A DNA stretch of 48,125 nt from Anaerolineales bacterium. GTDB lineage: Bacteria; Chloroflexota; Anaerolineae; Anaerolineales; Villigracilaceae. The position numbers and the translations under genes were made by a program. Shown in pieces: positions 32,602 through 45,282 of this stretch (position 1 is the first letter of the stretch; every line of letters begins with the position of its first letter). The notes beneath the pieces were generated by a model. The model saw only the letters and a list, made by a program, of their open reading frames with translations. It did no database searches and was not told the DNA's origin. The stretch covers positions 1 to 48,125 of the forward strand of contig JANWWK010000060.1 of NCBI GenBank assembly GCA_025056175.1, in the 5' to 3' direction.

Positions 32602-35112
32602 TCAGACGGCGCTTTGGTGGTGAGACAGGAATTCGCGGGCTAATTGCCGTACTTCCTCGGCAGTGGCGCATTCAACCAGTGCGCGCTGAGCCAGTTGTTG
32701 GGTTTCGTAAAGGGCGAGTGTCCGCACCAGCGCTTTGATTTTCGGAATGCCGCCGGGGTTCAGGCTCAGTTCGTCCACGCCCAGACCAATCAAAACGGGT
32801 ACGGCTTCGGGGTCGCCTGCCATCTCACCGCAGACGCCCACCCATCTGTCTTCTGCATGTGCGGCCTGGACGGTAGAATCTATCAGGCGTAAGAGGGCAG
32901 GATGCAATCCATCGGCAAGATGACTCAAAGCCGGGTTGCCGCGCTCGGCGGCGAAGGTATATTGCGTCAGGTCGTTTGTACCAATGCTGAAGAAATCCAC
33001 TTCCTGGGCGAGTTTGTGCGCCAGAAGCGCCGCCGAAGGAATTTCTACCATGATGCCGGTTTCGACTGGCCAGGCGTGGGGGATGTTGCCGCTTTCCAGT
33101 TCCGTATGTGCCTGGGTAAGCAAATCCTGGGCCTGACGAACTTCGTTGATGTCGGCAACCATCGGGAACATGATTCGACAAGGGAAGCCTGCCGCAGCGC
33201 GTAAGATGGCGCGCAGTTGGGTGAGGAAGAGAGACGGTTGTGCAAGCGAAAGGCGTAAGGCACGCACGCCCAGAAACGGGTTGGTTTCCTGGGGCATGGG
33301 AAGATACGGCAGAGCCTTGTCTCCGCCTACATCAAGCGTGCGTACCGTAATGGGACGATTTGTCCCCAGCGTTTCGTAAATGGGGCGTAACAGTTGATAC
33401 TGCTCTTCTTCGCCTGGTGCGGTTTGACGGGTGAGAAAAAGGAATTCGGTGCGCAGCAGGCCGCATCCTTCGGCGCCATTTTCGACGGCGGCTTGTGCGT
33501 CTTGTCCCTTTCCGATGTTAGCAAAAATTTCGATGCGGTGATGGTCGCGCGTAAATGCGAGTGCCTGGCTGTATTGTTGCAGGCGGCTACGGCGTTCCAG
33601 CCATTCGGCGCGGCGGGTTTGCAGGTCAGCAAGGGTTGAAGCGGGCGGGTCAATCCACACTTCTCCTGTACTGCCATCCAGGCCGATGAGAGTTCCCTGC
33701 GGTGTATTTTCGAGTAAGGGGCCGATTCCGGCGATGGCGGGAATTCCGAGCGCGCGGGCCAGAATGGCGCTGTGTGAGGTGGGGCCACCCCCTGACGTGA
33801 TGAGGCCAAGCACCTGTTTCAGGTCTATCTGAGCCGTTTCTGTGGGGGTCAGGTCAGGAGCATACAGAATCACTGGCGTTTCAAACGGGAGAGAGGGTGC
33901 AGCGCGGGCATCGGTAAGCGCGAAAAGCACCTGTCGTCCAACGTCTTCCACATCGGTTGCGCGGGCTTGCAGGTAGGCATCGGGCAGGTGGCGGTATTCT
34001 TGTGCGGCCTGCTGGATGGCCTGATTCCACGCGAAGGCGGCGTTTTCTCGTTGTTCAAAGATGCGCTTGCGTGCATTTTCCGACAGGCCTGGGTCTTGCA
34101 AAATGAGCAGGTGCGCCTCGAAGATGGCAGCCTGATGCTTTCCGATTGTTTGCTCTAAGCGGCGGGTGCGCTGTTCGATGGCCTGAGCCGTGTGTTGAAT
34201 GGCTTCTTGCAGGCGTTTCCATTCCGTTTCGGGCCGTTGCGCTGGTGTCTCAGGGATGGGCGGAAGGGCGGGTTCGTAGCGAAAGAGCGGAGCCAGCGCC
34301 ACTCCTTCAGAAACGGGGATCCCGCCCGTGCGCCCGGCGCTCGTTTCCGCGGGGAAATTGAGGGGTGATGGGGGTTCTCCTGCAGGAGCTTCTCCAAAGT
34401 TTGCTTCGACCAGGGTTTTGAGTGCGCTCAGGGCCTGGGCGGCTTCTGGCCCGCTGGCGCTGATTTGTATCTCGTGCTGTTCGATGGCGCCAAGTGTTGC
34501 CAGTGCATTCAGGCTGCGTGCCGAGACTGGCCCTTTGCCGGTCGTCAGATTGCGGACGCTGATTTCGGCTTTGAATTGCGCGGCAGTGCGGACGAATTGC
34601 GCCGCTGGGCGGGCGTGTAAGCCGTGCAGGTTTTTCAGGGTCAGTGTAATGCTTTCGGTCGGCGCAATGGCTTCGGATGGAATGACGGCGGGGGCTGGCG
34701 CTTCCTGTGCCATGTGCTGGCGTTTTGGCTCCAGGGCGGTGTTGGCTTCCTGGCAAATGGTGTCCAGGTCACTTCCCAGCCCAATCTGGACGGCGGCAGC
34801 AATCGCACCTTCTACGAGGGGGGCGGGGCAAAAGCGAATCTTGTTTCGCATCTCTGGCGGCAGGAGCTCCAGCGCCATGCCTGCGCTTAAGACGGCACTG
34901 CCCAGGTCCATCAATACCAGCACGCCATCTTCGGAATAAACCGTTTGAATGGCCTGCATGATTTCGATGGCGTCGGTGCCGAAATCGCTGCGCTCTTCCC
35001 CCACGCCTGCGGCAATGGCAACAGGCAGTTGGGCAGGCGCAACCTGCCCCAAAAAATCTACCAGGGCCGAGGCGAGCTTTCGGCTGTGCGAAACAAGAAC
35101 CAGCCCGACCAT
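32602..35112 (-). CDS. dhaM: DhaM-type multiphosphoryl transfer protein: EIIA-HPr-complete Enzyme I
   Basis: 836 residues. EIIA(Man/DhaM) domain 1-130 with phospho-His9 (MVGLVLVSHSRKLA). HPr domain about 153-240 with phospho-His166 (NLHGLHARPAAQF). Enzyme I about 264-810, with phospho-His447 (SGGGPTSHSAILARALGIPA), PEP-binding GCGLLRTEFLFL, RTLDVGGDK and SIGTNDLTQYTFAAERGNPA, and catalytic C761 (GVCGEMAGD). E. coli DhaM stops after the EI N-domain; here EI is complete, so phosphate can run PEP to DHA kinase within one protein. Start follows GGGAGAA, 15 bases after the sdhD-like stop. Confidence 0.92.
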   Translation of the reverse strand: MVGLVLVSHSRKLASALVDFLGQVAPAQLPVAIAAGVGEERSDFGTDAIEIMQAIQTVYSEDGVLVLMDLGSAVLSAGMALELLPPEMRNKIRFCPAPLVEGAIAAAVQIGLGSDLDTICQEANTALEPKRQHMAQEAPAPAVIPSEAIAPTESITLTLKNLHGLHARPAAQFVRTAAQFKAEISVRNLTTGKGPVSARSLNALATLGAIEQHEIQISASGPEAAQALSALKTLVEANFGEAPAGEPPSPLNFPAETSAGRTGGIPVSEGVALAPLFRYEPALPPIPETPAQRPETEWKRLQEAIQHTAQAIEQRTRRLEQTIGKHQAAIFEAHLLILQDPGLSENARKRIFEQRENAAFAWNQAIQQAAQEYRHLPDAYLQARATDVEDVGRQVLFALTDARAAPSLPFETPVILYAPDLTPTETAQIDLKQVLGLITSGGGPTSHSAILARALGIPAIAGIGPLLENTPQGTLIGLDGSTGEVWIDPPASTLADLQTRRAEWLERRSRLQQYSQALAFTRDHHRIEIFANIGKGQDAQAAVENGAEGCGLLRTEFLFLTRQTAPGEEEQYQLLRPIYETLGTNRPITVRTLDVGGDKALPYLPMPQETNPFLGVRALRLSLAQPSLFLTQLRAILRAAAGFPCRIMFPMVADINEVRQAQDLLTQAHTELESGNIPHAWPVETGIMVEIPSAALLAHKLAQEVDFFSIGTNDLTQYTFAAERGNPALSHLADGLHPALLRLIDSTVQAAHAEDRWVGVCGEMAGDPEAVPVLIGLGVDELSLNPGGIPKIKALVRTLALYETQQLAQRALVECATAEEVRQLAREFLSHHQSAV

Positions 35113-35127: not shown

Positions 35128-35532
35128 TTATGTGCTTTTGGAGGCAATCACCAGCGCCAGCCAGATTCCGTATCCAATCGTGAGAAGTCCAAACAGGCCA
35201 AAGCCCCAGTTGATGAGCCTCAGGACGCTGCGCGGGGGATTCAGGTCCAGCACGATGCCGCGCAGCCCGACCAGGCTATGCGTCACGACAGTAATGACGA
35301 AGAGAATCTCGATGGCTGGGATGAGCGGGTTGCGAAAATAGGCCACGATGTCATCATACGTCATCAGGCCGGAGTGGGCGCTTCCCAGATAGTGGTTGAC
35401 CGTCAGATGCAGGGCCAGGATAAGCACTAACAGCGGCCCGGTCACAATTTTGACCAGCCACAGCCAGGCGGTTTCTCCGGGTCGCGGCCCGGTGGGGTAT
35501 TGAAAGGAGGGCGGGTTGTTCATGGGGTTCAT
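35128..35532 (-). CDS. SdhD-like cytochrome b anchor subunit
   Basis: 134 residues, three hydrophobic helices (about 25-45, 70-92, 105-130). ALHLTVNHYLGSAHSG and the second-helix segment VVTHSLVGLRGIVLD carry a histidine in the position of the heme b ligand in SdhD/FrdD-type anchors. Overlaps the sdhC-like gene by four bases (ATGA); a second Met at codon 4 is possible. It should anchor the iron-sulfur subunit and help form the quinone site. No sdhA is adjacent; the flavoprotein gene in the operon is glpA-like. Confidence 0.82.
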   Translation of the reverse strand: MNPMNNPPSFQYPTGPRPGETAWLWLVKIVTGPLLVLILALHLTVNHYLGSAHSGLMTYDDIVAYFRNPLIPAIEILFVITVVTHSLVGLRGIVLDLNPPRSVLRLINWGFGLFGLLTIGYGIWLALVIASKST

Positions 35533-35912
35533 CCTGCAAACATGCGAATTGCAAAGACAAGCGTGCCAACTAAGGCCAAAAGCACTGAGAGGTAGAACAT
35601 TTGCGTCTGCTGGCGGATGCCAAGGCCGAAACTGGTGAGTACGACGCGCAATCCATTCAGGGCGTGGTAGATAACTGCTCCAATGACCAGCAATTCACCG
35701 AGCTTGACGAGCGGGCTTTTGGTCAGTTCCAGAAATTCTTCGTAGGCTTGTGGTCCCTGGGCCAGGCGTCCAAGCACAATCAGGTGCAAAAAAAGGTAAA
35801 ACGTCAGACCTAACCCGGTGAGGCGATTGAGAATGAACGCCCATGCGCCGGGGTTGCGCCCCAGGGGATTGAACCAGGTCAGGAGTTTGCGTGAGGAGGG
35901 TTGATTGTTCAT
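35529..35912 (-). CDS. SdhC-like cytochrome b anchor subunit
   Basis: 127 residues with three helices (about 24-47, 68-90, 104-125). NRLTGLGLTFYLFLHLIVLG matches the SdhC first-helix signature, and IYHALNGLRVVLTSFG has the His and the NG(L/I)R pattern of SdhC heme ligation. It follows the iron-sulfur subunit gene by 14 bases with GGAG upstream. Together with the next gene it makes a two-subunit, six-helix membrane anchor. Confidence 0.85.
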   Translation of the reverse strand: MNNQPSSRKLLTWFNPLGRNPGAWAFILNRLTGLGLTFYLFLHLIVLGRLAQGPQAYEEFLELTKSPLVKLGELLVIGAVIYHALNGLRVVLTSFGLGIRQQTQMFYLSVLLALVGTLVFAIRMFAG

Positions 35913-35926
35913 GTTTGCGTTGCTCC

Positions 35927-36652
35927 TTATTTCCCAAACACCTGGCGAAGTTTTGCGCCAACGACCTGTCGGCGTAAATCCATAATGCGGCGCGCAGGGT
36001 CAACGAACGAGGGGCAAACCGCAGTGCATTCAAAGGCGCTGTGACATCGCCAGACACCGTCTTCGCTATCGGCCAGTGGAAGCAATTCTGGGTGGCGGCG
36101 CATGCCCTGGTCTTGAATAGCGGCCAGTGGCGCCGGGCCGAGGTAGGCGGCGGTGGTTGCGGCCACCGGGCAGGCGCTGATGCATAATCCGCACTCCAGG
36201 CAGTCGCTCAGGCGCAGATATTGGGCGTCTTCGGGGTTCCAGGTGGAGGCAGGGTGTTCGATTTCTGCTTCGGTCACTGGCAGAACAGCGCGGGCATTCA
36301 CCCTTTCCATTTTGCGATACAGGTCGCCCATATCTACGACCAGGTCACTGACGATGGGGAAGTTACGCAACGGTTCAATCGTCAATACCGCTCCGTTTTG
36401 GGTCACTGCGCGAAGGGGGGTAATGCAAGTGAGCTTTTCTACGCCGTTGACGCGCATGCCGCACGCCCCGCAGGTGGAGTGATGGCAGGCATGACGGAAG
36501 CATAAACTGCGGTCATGAAATGCCCATACGCGCTCGACGGCATCCAGGACGTATTCATCGGGGTTGACTTGCAGCGTAAAGGTGTCGTAACGAGGGGCTT
36601 CGTTTGCTTTTTGGCGATAGAGTCTGAGCGTAAGAGTCCATTGTTCAGGCAT
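35927..36652 (-). CDS. SdhB/FrdB-type iron-sulfur subunit
   Basis: 241 residues from ATG 36652; a longer open frame to 36925 lies inside glpA and is a shadow. All three cluster motifs are present. [2Fe-2S]: C56-x4-C61-x2-C64-x11-C76 (HACHHSTCGACGMRVNG). [4Fe-4S]: C151-x2-C154-x2-C157-x3-C161-P (CLECGLCISACP). [3Fe-4S]-type: C203-x5-C209-x3-C213-P (CHSAFECTAVCP). This is the electron wire of complex II enzymes. Its start lies inside the last codons of glpA, so the two are translationally coupled. Confidence 0.9.
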   Translation of the reverse strand: MPEQWTLTLRLYRQKANEAPRYDTFTLQVNPDEYVLDAVERVWAFHDRSLCFRHACHHSTCGACGMRVNGVEKLTCITPLRAVTQNGAVLTIEPLRNFPIVSDLVVDMGDLYRKMERVNARAVLPVTEAEIEHPASTWNPEDAQYLRLSDCLECGLCISACPVAATTAAYLGPAPLAAIQDQGMRRHPELLPLADSEDGVWRCHSAFECTAVCPSFVDPARRIMDLRRQVVGAKLRQVFGK

Positions 36653-37829
36653 AGTGCTTTTCCTGGTTAGACAGAGTGTAATACTGGCGATAGGAGAGCA
36701 GCGGCGTTTCTCTGGTGGTGCAAGGCGTCTGAATGCCCAGTTTGGCGCAAACGACATCGGCGGTTTTTTCGGCCATCGCGCGCATGGTGGTTGCCTTTCC
36801 GCCGGTGATGGTGACCAGGCCCTCGATGTTGTGGGTCTCTTTGTGGTCAAAGCATTTGAAGGTGCGCGCCATGCTGCGCCCCGACCCGCTTCCCACCAGG
36901 GGACGGGTTGCCATGTAAATTCCACGTGGGCGGGCGTTGCGTATGGCCGGTATCAGCTCGCTGCCGCGTTCGAGCATGAGTTGCACCTGGTCTTCGGTGA
37001 CGGGGATGTAATCTACGTTTTCTGCTGTGAAGGAGGTGGTGCCAACGACCACCATGCGGCGCTGGGGGAGGACGATGTCGCCATCGCCGGGTTCGTTCAG
37101 GCGGTTGACCGCCCGCTGAACCAGACGCTGGTCGTATGCAACCATGATGCCCGGCGTGGGGTGAACCGGGGCATCCAGGCCGGCCATGGCGGTAATCTGC
37201 CCTGCCCAGGCGCCAGTGGCGTTGACGACCATATCAGCGTGCAGGTCTTCGTGCCGATTGGCGGCGCGGTCCAGGATGCGCACACCGGTCACATTTCCCT
37301 GCCCATCCATGAGCAGGGTTTCGACTTCGGCATAGGTGCGAAACTGTGCGCCGTTGTGTCTGGCGGTAGCCGCAAAGGCCAGTGCCAGCCGCAGCGGGTC
37401 GAAAGTTGCATCGGGGATGAGAAAGGCAGCCAGCAGGCGTGGGTTCAGGTTGGGTTCGAGCGTCAGGGCTTGCTGGGGGGTGAGTTCCTCTAAAGGAATG
37501 CCGCATTCTTCGCAACCGGCGATGAATTGTTCCGCGTAAGAAAGGTCGCTGTCATCAAGAGCGATGAACAGACCGCCGTTTGGCTCGATGACTTGCGGTA
37601 CGATTCGGCGCAAAATCTGGTTTTCTTCAATGCACTCAATGGCCGATTCTTTATCTTTGACGGCGTAGCGTCCGCCGCTGTGCAATAAGCCGTGTGTGCG
37701 GCCAGATGTGCCGTTGCAAATATCACCGCGTTCGACGACGGTGACCTGGCAGCCGCGCAGTGCCAGGTCGTGGGCGGTGGCTACGCCGGTAAAGCCTGCA
37801 CCGATGATAATCACATGGGGTTTGGACAT
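36645..37829 (-). CDS. GlpA-like FAD-dependent glycerol-3-phosphate dehydrogenase
   Basis: 394 residues with GGAGACC upstream of ATG 37829. N-terminal FAD-binding HVIIIGAGFTGVATAHDLAL, the GlpA/GlpD signature GTSGRTHGLLHSGGRYAVKD, VVNATGAWAGQITAMAG, and late TRPLVGSGSGRSMARTF and GLVTITGGKATTMRAMAEK. It corresponds to the catalytic domain of E. coli GlpA (542 residues) but lacks the C-terminal BFD-like iron-sulfur domain. It oxidises sn-glycerol-3-phosphate to DHAP. The immediately following genes are SdhB/C/D-like, not GlpB/GlpC, so these probably take the electrons. Confidence 0.88.
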   Translation of the reverse strand: MSKPHVIIIGAGFTGVATAHDLALRGCQVTVVERGDICNGTSGRTHGLLHSGGRYAVKDKESAIECIEENQILRRIVPQVIEPNGGLFIALDDSDLSYAEQFIAGCEECGIPLEELTPQQALTLEPNLNPRLLAAFLIPDATFDPLRLALAFAATARHNGAQFRTYAEVETLLMDGQGNVTGVRILDRAANRHEDLHADMVVNATGAWAGQITAMAGLDAPVHPTPGIMVAYDQRLVQRAVNRLNEPGDGDIVLPQRRMVVVGTTSFTAENVDYIPVTEDQVQLMLERGSELIPAIRNARPRGIYMATRPLVGSGSGRSMARTFKCFDHKETHNIEGLVTITGGKATTMRAMAEKTADVVCAKLGIQTPCTTRETPLLSYRQYYTLSNQEKHYA

Positions 37830-38449
37830 ATCGAGGTCTCCGTTTGGTGGGGAGGCGGAGTCTGGTTTGATTGGGATGAGGAAGAGCAGTCAGGACAATC
37901 GTAAACTTCTTGTGGAACATCGAGCGTTTGCAGGGTCGTCAACAGTTCGACCGGCCCGATTTTGAACCCTGTTGCCCCACACTGACATGCATATGCGCCG
38001 ATTGGGTATTGCGCGTAGGGCAGGGGTGGGGTGTTCAGGTCAATCAGTTCAACATCCAGACGCCAGCGGGCGTTGGTGATGAGGCGCTGTGCGCCGCACT
38101 GGCGGAGTTTTTCGGCATATTGACGAAAATGGGTGCAATGCCGCATGAGAAGCACACCGGTTGTGAGTTCTGGCGGAAAACGCCACGTAAGCGCATCGGC
38201 ACACACCACTTGCAGGTTCGATGGCAAGGGGTCGCTGCTCATTCCGCTCTGCAAAACAGCAGCATTGCGCTCGATGGCGATGACCCGGCGCGCTATGGCG
38301 GCAGCCTGGCGCGCAAAACGCAAGTCGCCTGCGCCAATATCCAGAACAACGTCTTCGGGGTGCAGGTGCTTTAAGGCAGCCTGATAGGTCGCCTGGTCAT
38401 AAGGCGCGAAGCGGGCTTCCCATTCTTCGTTGGAGCGGGCAGAAAACAT
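37811..38449 (-). CDS. SAM-dependent methyltransferase with C-terminal zinc-ribbon-like cysteines
   Basis: 212 residues from ATG 38449 (an open extension upstream belongs to the previous gene's region). Class I methyltransferase motif I DVVLDIGAGDLRFARQAA, motif II VIAIERNAAVL and LQVVCADALTW. The C-terminal third has CQC...CPDC (YACQCGATGFKIG and EVYDCPDCSSSSQ), a likely zinc ribbon. Target unknown. Its 3' end overlaps the glpA-like start by 19 bases, so it is in the operon, although no glycerol role is obvious. Confidence 0.75.
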   Translation of the reverse strand: MFSARSNEEWEARFAPYDQATYQAALKHLHPEDVVLDIGAGDLRFARQAAAIARRVIAIERNAAVLQSGMSSDPLPSNLQVVCADALTWRFPPELTTGVLLMRHCTHFRQYAEKLRQCGAQRLITNARWRLDVELIDLNTPPLPYAQYPIGAYACQCGATGFKIGPVELLTTLQTLDVPQEVYDCPDCSSSSQSNQTPPPHQTETSICPNPM

Positions 38450-38456
38450 GGTTGGC

Positions 38457-38714
38457 TTATTGTTTGCGACGCAAAAAGCGGTTGAGCAGCAGATTGCCAA
38501 AAAAGATAACCCAAACCAGCCCGCCAAATAGCAGCCCCCACAACAGCCCTTCCAGCCAACCCCGTTCCGGGATAACCTGCCAGGCGGTGAGTGCAGCCAT
38601 GACCAGGCTGGTGATGGTCATGACAATCAAGCCGGTACGCATCGAAATCCAGGGTGCTGCCAGGTCTTGTTGGGGAGTTTCTACGCGTTTGGGATGGTTT
38701 TTTTGGGTCTTCAC
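38457..38714 (-). CDS. Small two-helix membrane protein
   Basis: 85 residues from a GTG start at 38714 with GGAG seven bases upstream. Charged N-terminus, then two helices (about 26-46 and 52-75: LLWGLLFGGLVWVIFFGNLL) and a basic end NRFLRRKQ. It resembles AtpI/AtpZ-like small membrane proteins only in layout, and no family is assigned. It lies between the glpK terminator and the methyltransferase gene. Confidence 0.68.
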   Translation of the reverse strand: MKTQKNHPKRVETPQQDLAAPWISMRTGLIVMTITSLVMAALTAWQVIPERGWLEGLLWGLLFGGLVWVIFFGNLLLNRFLRRKQ

Positions 38715-38798: not shown

Positions 38799-40295
38799 TT
38801 ATTCTACCCAGTCGAAGGTGCGGGTGACGGCTTTCTTCCAGCCTTTGTAGAGTTTTTCGCGTTCTTCGGCGCTCATCTTGGGGGTCCACTCATGGTCTTT
38901 GCCCCAGTTAGCGCGCAGGTCTTCCACTTTGCTCCAGAAGCCAACGGCCAGGCCGGCAGCGTAAGCCGCGCCCAGGGCGGTGGTTTCAGAAACGGTGGGC
39001 CGAATGACGGGAACGCCGAGGATGTCGGCCTGGAATTGCATCAGCAAGTCATTGAAGACCATACCGCCATCTACTTTGAGGGCCGTGAGCGGCACGCCCG
39101 AGTCGGCGTTCATGGCATCCAGGACTTCGCGGGTCTGGTAAGCGGTGGCTTCCAGCGCTGCGCGGGCGATGTGATTCTTGGTGATGAAGCGGGTGAGACC
39201 CACGATGACACCGCGCGCGTCGCTACGCCAGTAGGGCGCAAACAGGCCAGAGAAGGCCGGTACGAAGTAAATGCCGCCGCTATCGGGAACAGCGCGGGCG
39301 TAATCTTCGATGTGCTTGGAGAAGTCGAAGAATTCCAGGTTGTCGCGCAGCCATTGCACCAGTGCGCCCGTGATGGCAATTGAGCCTTCCAGACAATAGA
39401 CGGCGGGTTCGTTGCCGATTTTGTACCCCAACGTGGTGAGCAGGCCGTTTTTGCTCTGCACGGGTTTCGTGCCGGTGTTGAGGAGCATGAAGCAGCCCGT
39501 TCCGTAGGTGTTTTTGGCTTCGCCGGGGCTGAAGCAGGTTTGTCCAAAGAGCGCGGCCTGCTGGTCGCCCAAATCGCCGGCGACGGGGACGCCGTTGAGC
39601 GAGCCGATGGCCTTGCCGTATACTTCGGCAGAAGGCCGGACGCGCGGCAGCATGGCTTTGGGGATGCCCATAATGCCCAGAATTTCGTCATCCCAATCCA
39701 GTGTCTCCAGGTTCATCAGCATGGTGCGGCTGGCGTTGGAGACATCCGTAATGTGAACGCCACCGTTCGGGCCGCCGGTGAGATTCCAGATGACCCACGT
39801 GTCAATATTGCCAAACAACACTTCGCCTTTTTCGGCTTTTTCGCGCACGCCCGGGACGTTATCCAGAATCCACTTGATTTTGGGGCCGGAGAAATAGGTT
39901 GCCAGGGGTAAGCCCACTTTAAGGCGGAAGCGGTCTTGCCCGCCGTCTTTGGCGAGTTCATTGCAGATGGCATCGGTGCGTGTATCTTGCCAGACGATGG
40001 CGTTGTACACCGGCTTACCAGTAGCGCGCTCCCACACCACCGTTGTTTCGCGCTGATTGGTTACGCCCACGGCGGCGATGTCTTGCGGGTCAATGTTGAA
40101 CTTCTTGAGTGCGCCGTCAATCACTTCTTGTGTGCGCTGCCAGATTTCGATGGGGTCGTGTTCAACCCAGCCCGGCTTGGGGTAAATTTGCTCATGTTCT
40201 TTCTGGTCAATGGCAACCACGCGACCAGCATGGTCAAAGACCATGAAGCGGGTGCTGGTGGTGCCTTGGTCTACTGCTGCGGCATATTTAGCCAT
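38799..40295 (-). CDS. glpK: Glycerol kinase
   Basis: 498 residues, the normal length, from ATG 40295 with GGAGGCACAC upstream. FGGY kinase motifs: [81 protein letters not shown], and [20 protein letters not shown]. It converts glycerol and ATP to sn-glycerol-3-phosphate in the cytoplasm, the substrate of the GlpA-like enzyme. It is 68 bases after dhaL and ends at a strong hairpin terminator. Confidence 0.98.
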
Positions 40296-40363: not shown

Positions 40364-41002
40364 TCAGGCGCTGTTTTTCCAGGTTTGTGCGGCAGCGTTG
40401 AGAATAAGGTAGGAAGAAGTTGCTCCCGGGTCCTGATGTCCGGCGCTGCGTTCGCCCAGATAACTGGCGCGTCCTTTGCGCGCGACCAGGGGGATGGTGC
40501 TTTCCATCCCCTGACGGGCGGCTTCTGCCGAGCGTTGAAGCGCAATGTGGAGTGGTTGTCCTTCGGCGATGGCTTGCTTGTAAACCGAAAGCGCCGGGGT
40601 GAGGGCATCTACCATCGTTTTGTCGCCTGGTTCGGCTTTGCCGCGCATCACGACGCCGTTGAGCGCAGCTTCCAGGGCTTCGGCCCAGTCCTGGGCGGTC
40701 ATTTCCATTTTGCCGGCTGTTTTCATGCCTGCTTGCAAAAAGAGCGTGCCATATAACGGTCCGCCAGCCCCTCCGACGGTGGAAAGCAGGGTCATGCCGA
40801 CCGTTTTGAAAATGGTGCCGATGTCTTTGTCGCGGATTTCGGGCATTTTGTTCATGACTGCCTTGAAACCGCGGTCCATGTTTGCGCCATGGTCGGCATC
40901 GCCGATGGCGGCATCCAGTTCGGTCAGGTAATTCTTGTTTTCGGCCAGCACGCTGGCAATGGCGGTAATCCAGGCGAGGACATCGTCACGAGAGACTGGC
41001 AT
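40364..41002 (-). CDS. dhaL: Dihydroxyacetone kinase, ADP-binding subunit DhaL
   Basis: 212 residues from ATG 41002 with GGAG upstream (alternative ATG 41014); the 41002 start aligns with E. coli DhaL ([12 protein letters not shown]). Motifs: [18 protein letters not shown], where the Asp residues bind Mg-[21 protein letters not shown], and [20 protein letters not shown]. In PTS-type enzymes the bound ADP is a fixed cofactor rephosphorylated by DhaM, and DhaL passes phosphate to DHA on DhaK. In E. coli DhaL also co-activates DhaR. Confidence 0.95.
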
Positions 41003-41067: not shown

Positions 41068-42069
41068 TTATACGCCCCAACGCAAACCAGGAGTCTTCAC
41101 CGGGGCATCCCACAGTTTGAGGAAATCGTCATCCATCTTGAGCAAGGTAATCGAAGTGCCAGCCATTTCGAGGCTGGTGATGTAGGAGCCAATCAAATTG
41201 CGGACCACCTTGAGACCATGTTTGGTGGCGATTTCATAGGCTTTGCGATAGACAATGTACAGTTCGATGAGCGGCGTGCCTCCCATGCCGTTCACAAACA
41301 GCAGCACTTCATCGCCAGCCTTGTAGGGCAGGTCGCTGACAATAGGCTCCATCAACATTTCGACGATTTCATCGGCCGATTTGAGCGGCAGCCGCGTGCG
41401 GCCTGGTTCACCATGAATGCCGATGCCAATTTCCATCTGGTCTTCTGGCAAATCGAAGGTGGGTTTGCCGACATGAGGCACTGTGCAGGAAGTCAGCGCC
41501 ATGCCCATGCTGCGTCCCAGTTCTTTGGCTTTGCGGCAAACATCGGCCACTTCTTTGAGCGAACGGCGTTGTTCGGCGGCAGCGCCGCACAATTTTTCGG
41601 CCAGGACGGTGGTGCCGACACCGCGCCGACCGGCGGTGTACAGGCTGTCTTTGACTGCTACGTCGTCGTCAATCACCACTGCTTCGACTTCGATGCCTTC
41701 CGCGCGCGCCAGGTCAGCGGCCATCTCGAAGTTCATGATGTCGCCCGTGTAGTTTTTGACGATATGCAATACCCCTGCGCCGCCGTTAACGGCTTTGGTC
41801 GCTTCCAGCATCTGGTCGGGCGTGGGGGAAGTGAACACTGCACCGGGACAGGCAGCATCGAGCATGCCCATGCCAACAAAGCCGCCGTGCATCGGTTCAT
41901 GGCCAGAGCCACCACCCGAAATCACTGCCACTTTGCCCTGAACGGGGGCATCGGCGCGCACGATGAAGTTGGGGTCGAAATGCACTTTCACCAGGTCGCT
42001 GTGTGCGTAAGCAATGCCTTCCAGCTCCTCACGCACGACATCTTCTGGCTTATTAATCAATTTTTTCAT
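41068..42069 (-). CDS. dhaK: Dihydroxyacetone kinase, DHA-binding subunit DhaK
   Basis: 333 residues from ATG 42069 with GAGGAGAG upstream. [56 protein letters not shown] and [17 protein letters not shown] are diagnostic, and the substrate-binding His219 lies in [16 protein letters not shown] binds covalently as a hemiaminal to this His. It pairs with dhaL and the DhaM protein at the far end of the cluster. Confidence 0.97.
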
Positions 42070-42103: not shown

Positions 42104-42877
42104 TTATTTGGCCGGGAGGTTCTTGCTCACGAGCAGGTCATACAAATAGATGCCGATGAGGGCGCCGATGATGGGGGCAATGATAGGAATCAGCCAGTAG
42201 CCATCGGCAAACAGTCCCTGCGTACCGACCAGCGTGCCAAACAGACGGGGGCCGAAATCACGCGCCGGGTTGATGGCGTAACCGCTTGGCCCGCCCAGGC
42301 TCAGGCCGACCGCCAGCACTGTGCCGCCGACCAGGAATGGACCCAGGTTGTGCATCAGACCGGTGTTTTTGCTATCACCGCTGGCTAAAACGCCCCAGAG
42401 CAGAACGGCCGTGCCGAAAATTTCGGCCACAATCGCGTTGACGAAGCTATATCCGCCTGCTGATGCTGCGCCAGCGCCCCCCCAGAAGGCCTGACCAAAG
42501 ACTGAGCCGGGGCCAGTACACCAAACGTTCGGCATTCCGGCTTTAACGAGACCATCCATGTACACCAGGTAAACCCCCAATGCGCCCAGGAAAGCGCCCA
42601 CAACCTGCGCAATGATATACGGGAAGACGTCTTTCCATGGGAAGCCGCGTTTGAAGGCCAGGGCAATTGTCACCGCCGGGTTGAGGTGCGCGCCCGAAAC
42701 ACCTGCCGAAACATACACGGCGACAATCACGGCAAAGGCCCAGCCGAAGGTGATGGTGTTCCAGTTATAGGCTGGCGCTGCCAGGCGAGGCGCCAACCCT
42801 ACATTGGCAACCACGCCGTCACCAAGCAGGATGAGGATAAACGTGCCGAAAACTTCGCCAATCAGTTTTCCGAACAT
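42104..42877 (-). CDS. glpF: Glycerol uptake facilitator (aquaglyceroporin)
   Basis: 257 residues, MIP family, six helices and both NPA boxes: [18 protein letters not shown] and [17 protein letters not shown]. The Asp after the second box (NPARD) is typical of glycerol-conducting members. ATG 42877 follows AAGGAGAAAAACC. It admits glycerol by diffusion, and GlpK traps it. First gene of the metabolic part of the cluster, with a 380-base regulatory gap upstream. Confidence 0.96.
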
Positions 42878-43257: not shown

Positions 43258-45282
43258 CTAGTGAATGTGCTGGCGAAATTCATGCACGTTAATATCGAAG
43301 GATTTCAGTTTGCGCCATAGTGTGGTTCGACCGATACCCAGCGCCTCGGCCATGTGCGTCAAATTCCCCCGATACTTTTGTGCGGCGCGCAGAATGGTCT
43401 CGTATTCTGCTTCTTTCAGCGAATGATAATTGATTTTTTCGATAGATTCCTGAGGAGGAAGGGCATGGTTCATTCGCACTTCTGGTGGTAGATGCTGCAC
43501 CTCAATACAACCGCCAGACGAGGCCACTTGCATGGCAGCCCGCCCTAAAACGGCTTCCAATTCGCGGATGTTGCCCGGCCAGGTATATTTTTTCAGGGTT
43601 TCCATGGCGTCGGGCGATAATTCGACTGTATAACCTAACTGGGTCGAGAAGCGCGTCAGAATGCGTTCAACCACGAGGGGAAAATCCTCCTGACGTTCCC
43701 GCAGGGGTGGCAGGGTGATGCTGAAGATGCTTAAGCGATAATACAGGTCGGAACGAAAAGCGCCCCGGGCAATTAATTTTTCGATATTTGCCGAAGTTGA
43801 AGCGATAACCCGTACATCAATTTCGACGGCACGTTTTCCATGCAGACGCTGGATGACGTTGAGTTCGAGCGCGTTTAACAGCACCGTTTGTGCTTCCAAC
43901 GGCAGCGCATCTACATCTTGAAAAAAGAGCGTGCCTCCCTGCGCCAGCTCGAATTTGCTGGGGCGCCCGCTTCCTTGTTTATTTTCACTCTCTTCAAAGC
44001 CAAGTAATTCGGGAATGACCAGTTCGTTTGGCACTGACGCACATGCAAAGACCAAAAAAGGACCGTTTCGACGCGGCCCCGCATTGTGGATAGCGCTGGC
44101 CAGTACGTTTTTCCCGGTCCCCGGCTCGCCGCGAATCAGAATGCTGGCCTGGGCGCCGGCTGCCGATTTGACGAAGCTTCTCACCCGTTTCATCGCGGGC
44201 GTTTCGCCAGGAATATCGTTGAGCGTGAGCGGCGCTTTGGCGCCGACTTGTTTTTGCACCAGTAAACGCACTTTGTTTTCGGCGCGCAGGGTCAGGATGA
44301 CCCAGCGGATTTTCTGGGCTGTTTGCAGAACGTAATCCAGACTCAAGACGCAGCGCACCGACTGTTTTCCGACGTTGATGATGCCCTCCACATCGGTCAG
44401 TGTTTTTCGCCTGGCAATCTGTTTATGGACGAACTCTGGCAAAGTTAGCACGTTATAAATGGAATGCCCCAGCATCGATTGCAGGGGAATTCCAAGAATC
44501 TGACTGGCAGCATGGTTGGCATGCACCAGATTGCCATCTTCTTTCCAAACCATGATGCCATCCGAAATGCCCGAAAGGATGGCATTCAACTGTGCCAGCT
44601 GGCTGTTTTGTTCTTCGAGCAAGACATCAGATTGACGCTGACTTTCAATAGAGCGGGCTGCAGCGGTTACCAATCCCAGGGAGTGGATGTGGTACTTTTC
44701 TGCCGGCATAATCAAACCGAACACCCCCAACAGGTGACCACTTATATCGAAAATCGGCGCTGCGGCCCCCGTAAGTTGATGGAACTGGCGGACAAAATGT
44801 TCATGTCCTGCCACTTGCACGGGCATTCGTTCTATCAGCGCCAGCCCAAACGAATTCGTTCCAATCAATTCTTCCGAGAGTAAACAGCCTGGCTCCACAC
44901 CCCATTCTTTCATCCCCTCTTGCAGGCTGGGGTCACTCACCATGTCGAGGATACAGCCAGCGTTGTTTGTCAGGATGAGCGCCGTTTCGGAGCCTTGTAC
45001 GCACTGGTAGATGTCTTCCAGCATCGGACGGGCAATTGCCATCAGGTCGAAACTGGCGGTTTGTGAGGCCAGTAAACAGGCGCTGCCTACGTGTGTGAAT
45101 TTAACCGGCAAAAATGGGTTCACTTTTCCCCAACATCGCCGCCACGAGGCTGAAATCAAGGGCGGAACGTAAGGGGCAATTTTCTGCGTCGTGATGAATT
45201 CTTCCCAGGCGGTTTTTATGCTGTCTTGCACTGTATCTTTCGACTGCTTCAGGTAGGGGGAAAGGGCAGTTTCGACATTCAT
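43258..45282 (-). CDS. dhaR: DhaR-like transcriptional activator (AAA+ family, lacking GAFTGA)
   Basis: 674 residues. GAF-like sensor about 75-215, PAS domain about 225-335, AAA+ domain about 355-590 (Walker A RGEPGTGKN at 384-392), C-terminal Fis-type helix-turn-helix (GNLTHMAEALGIGRTTLWRK). The sigma54-contact loop is missing: after PELLGFE comes ESENKQGSGRPSKFELA, and Walker B is LFFQDVD instead of FLDEI. E. coli DhaR likewise lacks this loop, works at a sigma70 promoter and is controlled by DhaL and DhaK. It lies 53 bases after gyrA with no terminator between, so read-through from gyrA is possible. Confidence 0.88.
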   Translation of the reverse strand: MNVETALSPYLKQSKDTVQDSIKTAWEEFITTQKIAPYVPPLISASWRRCWGKVNPFLPVKFTHVGSACLLASQTASFDLMAIARPMLEDIYQCVQGSETALILTNNAGCILDMVSDPSLQEGMKEWGVEPGCLLSEELIGTNSFGLALIERMPVQVAGHEHFVRQFHQLTGAAAPIFDISGHLLGVFGLIMPAEKYHIHSLGLVTAAARSIESQRQSDVLLEEQNSQLAQLNAILSGISDGIMVWKEDGNLVHANHAASQILGIPLQSMLGHSIYNVLTLPEFVHKQIARRKTLTDVEGIINVGKQSVRCVLSLDYVLQTAQKIRWVILTLRAENKVRLLVQKQVGAKAPLTLNDIPGETPAMKRVRSFVKSAAGAQASILIRGEPGTGKNVLASAIHNAGPRRNGPFLVFACASVPNELVIPELLGFEESENKQGSGRPSKFELAQGGTLFFQDVDALPLEAQTVLLNALELNVIQRLHGKRAVEIDVRVIASTSANIEKLIARGAFRSDLYYRLSIFSITLPPLRERQEDFPLVVERILTRFSTQLGYTVELSPDAMETLKKYTWPGNIRELEAVLGRAAMQVASSGGCIEVQHLPPEVRMNHALPPQESIEKINYHSLKEAEYETILRAAQKYRGNLTHMAEALGIGRTTLWRKLKSFDINVHEFRQHIH

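Follow-up and report, generated by a model that had tools for sequence, protein, structure and literature searches.

In bacteria, the canonical glpA gene consistently co-occurs with glpB and glpC, according to the parts of PMC11962113 available to us. For Thermofilum-related archaea, the same parts describe, by gene order, glpA followed by counterparts of sdhB, sdhC, and sdhD (PMC11962113, 2025). A GlpA-SdhBCD is drawn for Thermofilum pendens in the legend of Fig. 9b, where SdhBCD is read as membrane anchor and electron-transfer arm of the glycerol-3-phosphate (G3P) dehydrogenase (PMC11962113). Those parts also present GlpA-CoxG of Sulfolobus acidocaldarius; they mention no bacterial GlpA-SdhBCD case and describe no G3P:quinone activity for the T. 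pendens complex. Among the matches listed, no other description of the arrangement was apparent in the literature. Here we analyzed a stretch of 48,125 nucleotides (the window) from an Anaerolineales bacterium of the phylum Chloroflexota (assembly GCA_025056175.1, contig JANWWK010000060.1), in which a glpA-like gene is followed by sdhB-, sdhC-, and sdhD-type genes at positions 35,128 to 37,829. We consider it very probable that the product of this glpA-sdhBCD cluster is a bacterial GlpA-SdhBCD complex that works in the membrane as an sn-glycerol-3-phosphate:menaquinone oxidoreductase, and we infer that it transfers electrons from G3P to quinone. The reading draws on gene content, conservation, the clades of the subunits, a correlation between partner and domain, one GlpA-SdhB fusion, and the presence of GlpABC in the equivalent place of the operon in relatives.

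The original prediction, made from the letters of the window, had proposed that the electron-transfer module of complex II was recruited to a GlpA flavoprotein. Our analysis supports this, since the SdhA of the genome has its own C, D, and B subunits, the SdhB paired with GlpA forms a separate clade, and the adjacency is widespread. The accompanying statement that no described enzyme of such make-up was known has to be corrected in view of the T. pendens drawing. This subunit composition had thus already been proposed, in the literature found only for Thermofilum-related archaea. What is added here is its extension to bacteria, with a branch in Chloroflexota and in Actinomycetes metagenome-assembled genomes (MAGs), a rule linking domain and partner, a fusion protein, and pairs without anchors. 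The genes of the cluster are the following.

36645..37829, minus strand: glpA-like flavoprotein, 394 amino acids, with the flavin adenine dinucleotide (FAD)/G3P (DAO) core alone and without the C-terminal BFD-like [2Fe-2S] domain
35927..36652, minus strand: SdhB-type iron-sulfur subunit, 241 amino acids, with [2Fe-2S] (all-Cys), [4Fe-4S], and [3Fe-4S] motifs
35529..35912, minus strand: SdhC-type membrane anchor, 127 amino acids, with invariant H83 and H43 and with R30 aligned to E. coli R31
35128..35532, minus strand: SdhD-type membrane anchor, 134 amino acids, with invariant H85, H42, and H47

The glpA and sdhB genes overlap by 8 bases, sdhB and sdhC are separated by 14 bases, sdhC and sdhD overlap by 4 bases, and sdhD lies 15 bases from the next gene, so that the predicted junctions, coordinates, and gene types were all correct. 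No sdhA, glpB, or glpC is among the genes of the operon, as had also been predicted, and no SdhA/FrdA flavoprotein with a Succ_DH_flav_C domain is in the glpA-sdhBCD set. The locus shares with E. coli GlpABC the GlpA core family (TIGR03377), the conserved residues, the operon setting, and the presumed reaction, but its GlpA has no C-terminal [2Fe-2S] domain and SdhBCD stands in place of GlpB and GlpC. With complex II (succinate:quinone reductase or quinol:fumarate reductase) it has in common the SdhB cluster motifs, the heme-ligand positions of SdhC/SdhD, and the quinone-site Arg, whereas SdhA/FrdA is lacking from the gene set, the SdhB belongs to a separate clade, and the [2Fe-2S] motif is all-Cys. 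GlpD and GlpO resemble the window GlpA in the DAO core and aligned residues, but they carry a DAO_C domain and have no partner subunits. The arrangement of Thermofilum, glpA then sdhB, sdhC, and sdhD with no sdhA, is also that of the window; it is an archaeal gene-order prediction and was compared here by gene order alone. GlpA-CoxG likewise has a truncated GlpA beside a different anchor gene, but this anchor is CoxG, and iron-sulfur and heme subunits are lacking in the parts of the paper available (PMC11962113).

The GlpA protein matched TIGR03377 with 452 bits over positions 1-384 of the 530-position profile, which is below the cut-off of 552.8 because the C-terminal part is absent, in line with the BFD-less 394-residue protein that had been predicted. 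Residues H50, R54, Y55, R309, P310, and K345, which we take to be active-site residues, are conserved in the alignment and the catalytic core residues are present; among short GlpAs (defined below), the residues aligned with GlpO/GlpD are conserved. The SdhB scored 162 bits against TIGR00384 (cut-off 88) and matched Fer2_3 and Fer4_8 too. Profiles and motif reading confirmed the three predicted cluster motifs as intact (Cys4 for [2Fe-2S], CxxCxxCxxxCP, and Cx5Cx3CP). The [2Fe-2S] motif is all-Cys here versus CGSD in the SdhB of the organism's own succinate dehydrogenase (SDH). SdhC matched TIGR02970 with 76.7 bits (cut-off 52.3) and SdhD matched Sdh_cyt with 37 bits (cut-off 25.8). The predicted heme-ligand-like histidines were borne out by alignment. 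H83 of SdhC aligns with E. coli SdhC H84 and is invariant (59/59), and H85 of SdhD aligns with E. coli SdhD H71 and is invariant (60/60), both E. coli residues being presumed heme ligands. R30 of SdhC, invariant in the 59 aligned SdhCs, is at the position of E. coli R31, which presumably belongs to the quinone site. H43 of SdhC and H42 and H47 of SdhD are invariant in the same alignments, and these extra histidines may bind a second heme, as in two-heme types of complex II. The organism's ordinary SdhC, however, likewise has His at the H43 position.

The adjacency is conserved. Among 100 genomes of the window's family, nine (the window's own included) carry the GlpA with 75-100% identity. The glpA-sdhB-sdhC-sdhD order is kept in seven of the eight relatives' loci; in the eighth, the contig ends inside glpA and SdhB-C-D-DhaM are found on another contig (L103). 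A search of 400 Chloroflexota genomes gave 99 GlpA matches in 94 genomes with a score gap between 443 and 368 bits, and we took the 23 matches above this gap as window-type GlpAs, leaving unclassed a partial match of 158 residues that lies at the end of a contig in G101. SdhB is adjacent to 19 of the 23 (18 directly; G232 is cut by a contig end), one is split by contig ends, and for the other three, all in family f5, an SdhB of the same clade is elsewhere in the genome. In these f5 genomes (G346, G429, and G133), the short GlpA and the SdhB are in separate loci (L233, L234, L235; L096, L098, L099) without dedicated SdhC/D. Among the best 80 loci when named genome contigs were scanned, the closest named relatives of the GlpA are for the most part MAGs of Chloroflexota, with many labeled Anaerolineae; no Thermofilum sequence was among these 80. 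We also considered a chance adjacency or strain-specific accident, which was ruled out by the same gene order in relatives and by the wider genome searches. The conserved adjacency on which the original prediction had suggested a check is thus real and not unique to the strain.

We pooled the GlpA loci from our genome searches and from the scan of named contigs, with E. coli included, the window left out, and duplicates removed. The pool held 127 non-redundant GlpAs, 118 of them informative; the other 9 (seven short and two long) lay too near the end of a contig. A GlpA was called long when at least 125 residues followed the core, and short when at most 15 residues did or when it was fused; GlpB was sought with a single query, from L100. 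GlpB came after all 26 long GlpAs and SdhB after none, which agrees with the published statement on canonical glpA in the parts of that paper available to us (PMC11962113). Short GlpAs had SdhB next or fused in 86 of 92 cases (one fused), GlpB in none, and neither in 6. A BFD-like CxC...C..C motif was present in the extension of 32/32 long GlpAs and in 0/83 short GlpAs. Since the pool was gathered mostly with short-GlpA profiles, these proportions are no census, and their weight is in the absence of crossed cases. The rule is clean: a GlpA without its own [2Fe-2S] domain pairs with SdhB. Read mechanistically, the [2Fe-2S] acceptor beside FAD would come either from the C-terminal domain of GlpA or from SdhB.

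The same division appears in trees, both of which were quick and built without bootstrap. In the GlpA tree (115 rows; L105, L187, L188, and L155 removed), a branch with 100% support in the SH-like approximate likelihood ratio test (SH-aLRT) separates 84 short GlpAs from a group made up of 29 long ones, a single row truncated at a contig end, and E. coli GlpA. The SdhB tree (104 rows; L087 (second match), L128, L178, and duplicates removed) also contains a branch with 100% SH-aLRT support, which has E. coli SdhB and FrdB and 23 ordinary SdhBs, drawn from 22 genomes, on one side. On the other side are the SdhBs of the GlpA loci and the three f5 SdhBs. The paired SdhBs thus lie outside ordinary SDH and fumarate reductase (FRD), contrary to the possibility, raised with the original prediction, that they belong to ordinary SDH and adjoin glpA in this strain alone.

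Gene fusions also link the subunits. In an Actinomycetes MAG (L115:5899-8061), GlpA and SdhB, joined by an Ala-, Ser-, and Thr-rich linker, form one open reading frame (ORF) of 720 amino acids, with SdhC and SdhD next. In a Chloroflexota MAG (L120:7177-8313), SdhB and SdhC form one ORF of 378 amino acids adjoining a short GlpA. Of 376 genomes of the phylum to which the first MAG belongs, 13 have the short type at 456 bits or more, the L115 and L116 MAGs included. Ten further loci of this phylum, fetched uncut, have SdhB, SdhC, and SdhD without exception (10/10); seven have glpK upstream, and six of these seven have a DhaM fusion downstream. The L115 fusion is a natural protein and a good target for structure work.

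The operon gives the setting of the complex. On the minus strand, the order is glpF, dhaK, dhaL, glpK, two small ORFs, glpA, sdhB, sdhC, sdhD, and the DhaM-type fusion.

43258..45282, minus strand: GAF-PAS-sigma54-activator-Fis regulator upstream of the operon, with a make-up we take to be DhaR-like
42104..42877, minus strand: glpF-like MIP channel (TIGR00861, 185 bits)
41068..42069, minus strand: dhaK (TIGR02363, 491 bits)
40364..41000, minus strand: dhaL (TIGR02365, 256 bits), upstream start not fixed
38799..40295, minus strand: glpK, glycerol kinase (TIGR01311, 757 bits, cut-off 590)
38457..38714, minus strand: small ORF with a weak DUF3792/TIGR04086 match below cut-off
37811..38527, minus strand: methyltransferase-like ORF, placed likewise in several relatives, start not fixed
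32602..35112, minus strand: DhaM-type EIIA-man/HPr/enzyme I fusion, the presumed phosphoryl donor for dihydroxyacetone kinase

In this setting, glycerol would enter through GlpF and be converted to G3P by GlpK. The GlpA core, judging from its family and conserved residues, would oxidize G3P to dihydroxyacetone phosphate (DHAP) on FAD. FADH2 would then pass its electrons to the SdhB-type subunit, whose [2Fe-2S] cluster would substitute for the C-terminal [2Fe-2S] domain of canonical GlpA. From there they would move through the [4Fe-4S] and [3Fe-4S] clusters to quinone, probably menaquinone, at the SdhC/SdhD anchor, where one heme b site is likely conserved and another may exist.

The broad DAO superfamily would allow a complex of the same subunits whose short GlpA oxidizes another 2-hydroxy-phosphate or a hydroxy acid. 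The neighborhood of glpK bears on this. We counted glpK within 1.5 kb upstream of short loci that have SdhB and at least 1 kb of upstream sequence. It was present in 38 of 46 mostly Chloroflexota loci (absent from 8) and in 8 of 12 Actinomycetes loci (absent from 4), compared with 15 of the 26 long loci. In the spirochaete and deltaproteobacterial pairs, it was found in 3 of 16 (absent from 13) and 0 of 6, respectively. From these counts, support for G3P as the substrate is good in loci of the window's kind and weak in the spirochaete and deltaproteobacterial pairs. The window's gene itself shares its operon with glpF, glpK, and dhaKLM, and the residues aligned with GlpO/GlpD are conserved. 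In relatives' loci L100, L171, L175, and L176, moreover, a canonical glpABC is between glpK and dhaM, in the slot (glpF-dhaKL-glpK-[..]-dhaM) that glpA-sdhBCD fills here, and in L100 all three Glp proteins are above curated cut-offs. The two modules therefore look interchangeable for one role. A different substrate thus seems unlikely for the complex. As a separate observation, one locus (L097 in G474) holds a long glpA with GlpB/GlpC and a short glpA-sdhB-sdhCD within about 7 kb.

SdhBCD could also be a second isoform of SDH or fumarate reductase that serves an unlinked SdhA, with GlpA working alone and the adjacency incidental. Apart from the link to GlpA, the best matches of the subunits are indeed SDH/FRD family models, and a single SdhA was found in the genome (3.57 Mb, 95 contigs, listed completeness 100%). 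However, this sole SdhA is on another contig (C1) in a contiguous sdhC-sdhD-sdhA-sdhB, the separate complete SDH for which the original prediction had suggested looking. Its pairing with the operon's SdhBCD is therefore unlikely. Of the 25 genomes that carry a window-type GlpA, 23 also have an ordinary-clade SdhB; in the cases of G372 and G247, the second Fer2_3 protein is left unclassified. The paired SdhBs are separate in the tree, a GlpA-SdhB fusion exists, and SdhB is tied to the GlpA form without its own [2Fe-2S] domain. We regard a second SDH as very unlikely. In the window's genome, no GlpB reached the family cut-off, the only two matches covering some 31 N-terminal residues, and the DAO_C domain that marks GlpD was not found. 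The operon's GlpA is the only candidate found there for respiratory G3P oxidation. Reverse running as a menaquinol:DHAP reductase making G3P for lipids or redox balance is extremely unlikely, for although complex II modules of the Frd/Sdh type operate in both directions, the G3P/DHAP potential (about -190 mV) is below that of menaquinone and the operon holds glycerol channel and kinase genes.

Besides the make-up of the pool and the glpK counts of the spirochaete and deltaproteobacterial pairs, several points weigh against a GlpA-SdhBCD oxidizing G3P. The evidence consists of gene and sequence comparisons. The L115 fusion is a single MAG sequence without glpK close upstream. Its AlphaFold2 model (input alignment of the fusion with 8 GlpA and 32 SdhB rows) had a mean local confidence (pLDDT) of 73.6 and a predicted template modeling score (pTM) of 0.55 and did not fix the orientation of GlpA and SdhB. 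A DAO_C (GlpD-type) protein is present in 13 of the 25 genomes with window-type GlpA, and GlpB over cut-off in 4, and window-type GlpA is therefore often not the sole G3P dehydrogenase. Four solitary GlpA loci, in three f5 genomes and one Thermoflexales MAG, have no adjacent SdhB. Recognized SdhC and SdhD were found in none of 22 short loci with SdhB (16 spirochaete and 6 deltaproteobacterial), a few of whose contigs end soon after; SdhCD is therefore not obligatory for the GlpA-SdhB pair. A further caution about the substrate of these pairs comes from Desulfobacterium autotrophicum, in which a 'GlpAB', perhaps of another family, is linked with dicarboxylate transporters in the parts of the paper available (PMC2702500). 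The name 'GlpAB' is used for sulfate reducers in the accessible parts of two papers (PMC2702500, PMC11505543), and those of the former make no mention of SdhB.

The short SdhB loci without recognized C/D number 25 in all, among them two from Chloroflexota (L095 and L162), two whose contig soon ends (L090 and L157), and two with little sequence past SdhB (L141 and L143). No Sdh_cyt match was found in the 14 spirochaete genomes searched (completeness not stated), and such matches are present in five of the six deltaproteobacterial genomes with short GlpA-SdhB. We tentatively suggest, though with considerable doubt, that complex II has in its iron-sulfur and anchor arm a plug-in module that also serves a flavoprotein outside the SdhA family, both in bacteria and, according to the published proposal, in archaea. 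A two-heme anchor, with SdhC H43 and SdhD H42 or H47 as the extra histidines, would then provide G3P respiration with a transmembrane electron path of its own in SdhCD-bearing bacteria, and the anchorless pair of spirochaetes and Desulfovibrio-like bacteria would feed a non-quinone acceptor. If the GlpA-SdhBCD assignment is true, SdhB/C/D genes adjoining such a glpA should not be automatically annotated as succinate dehydrogenase.

Among the anchorless loci, Desulfovibrio sp. A2 (L142:5956-7990) has a two-gene GlpA-SdhB unit without recognized SdhC/D, and a GC-rich terminator-like repeat with a T-run, read by eye, is immediately 3' of its SdhB. In the window's operon, EIIA, HPr, and enzyme I of the DhaM-type gene (32602-35112) are in a single protein of 836 amino acids, by make-up a self-contained phosphorelay from phosphoenolpyruvate to DhaL. 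Several relatives likewise keep the methyltransferase-like ORF and the small ORF in the interval from glpK to glpA.

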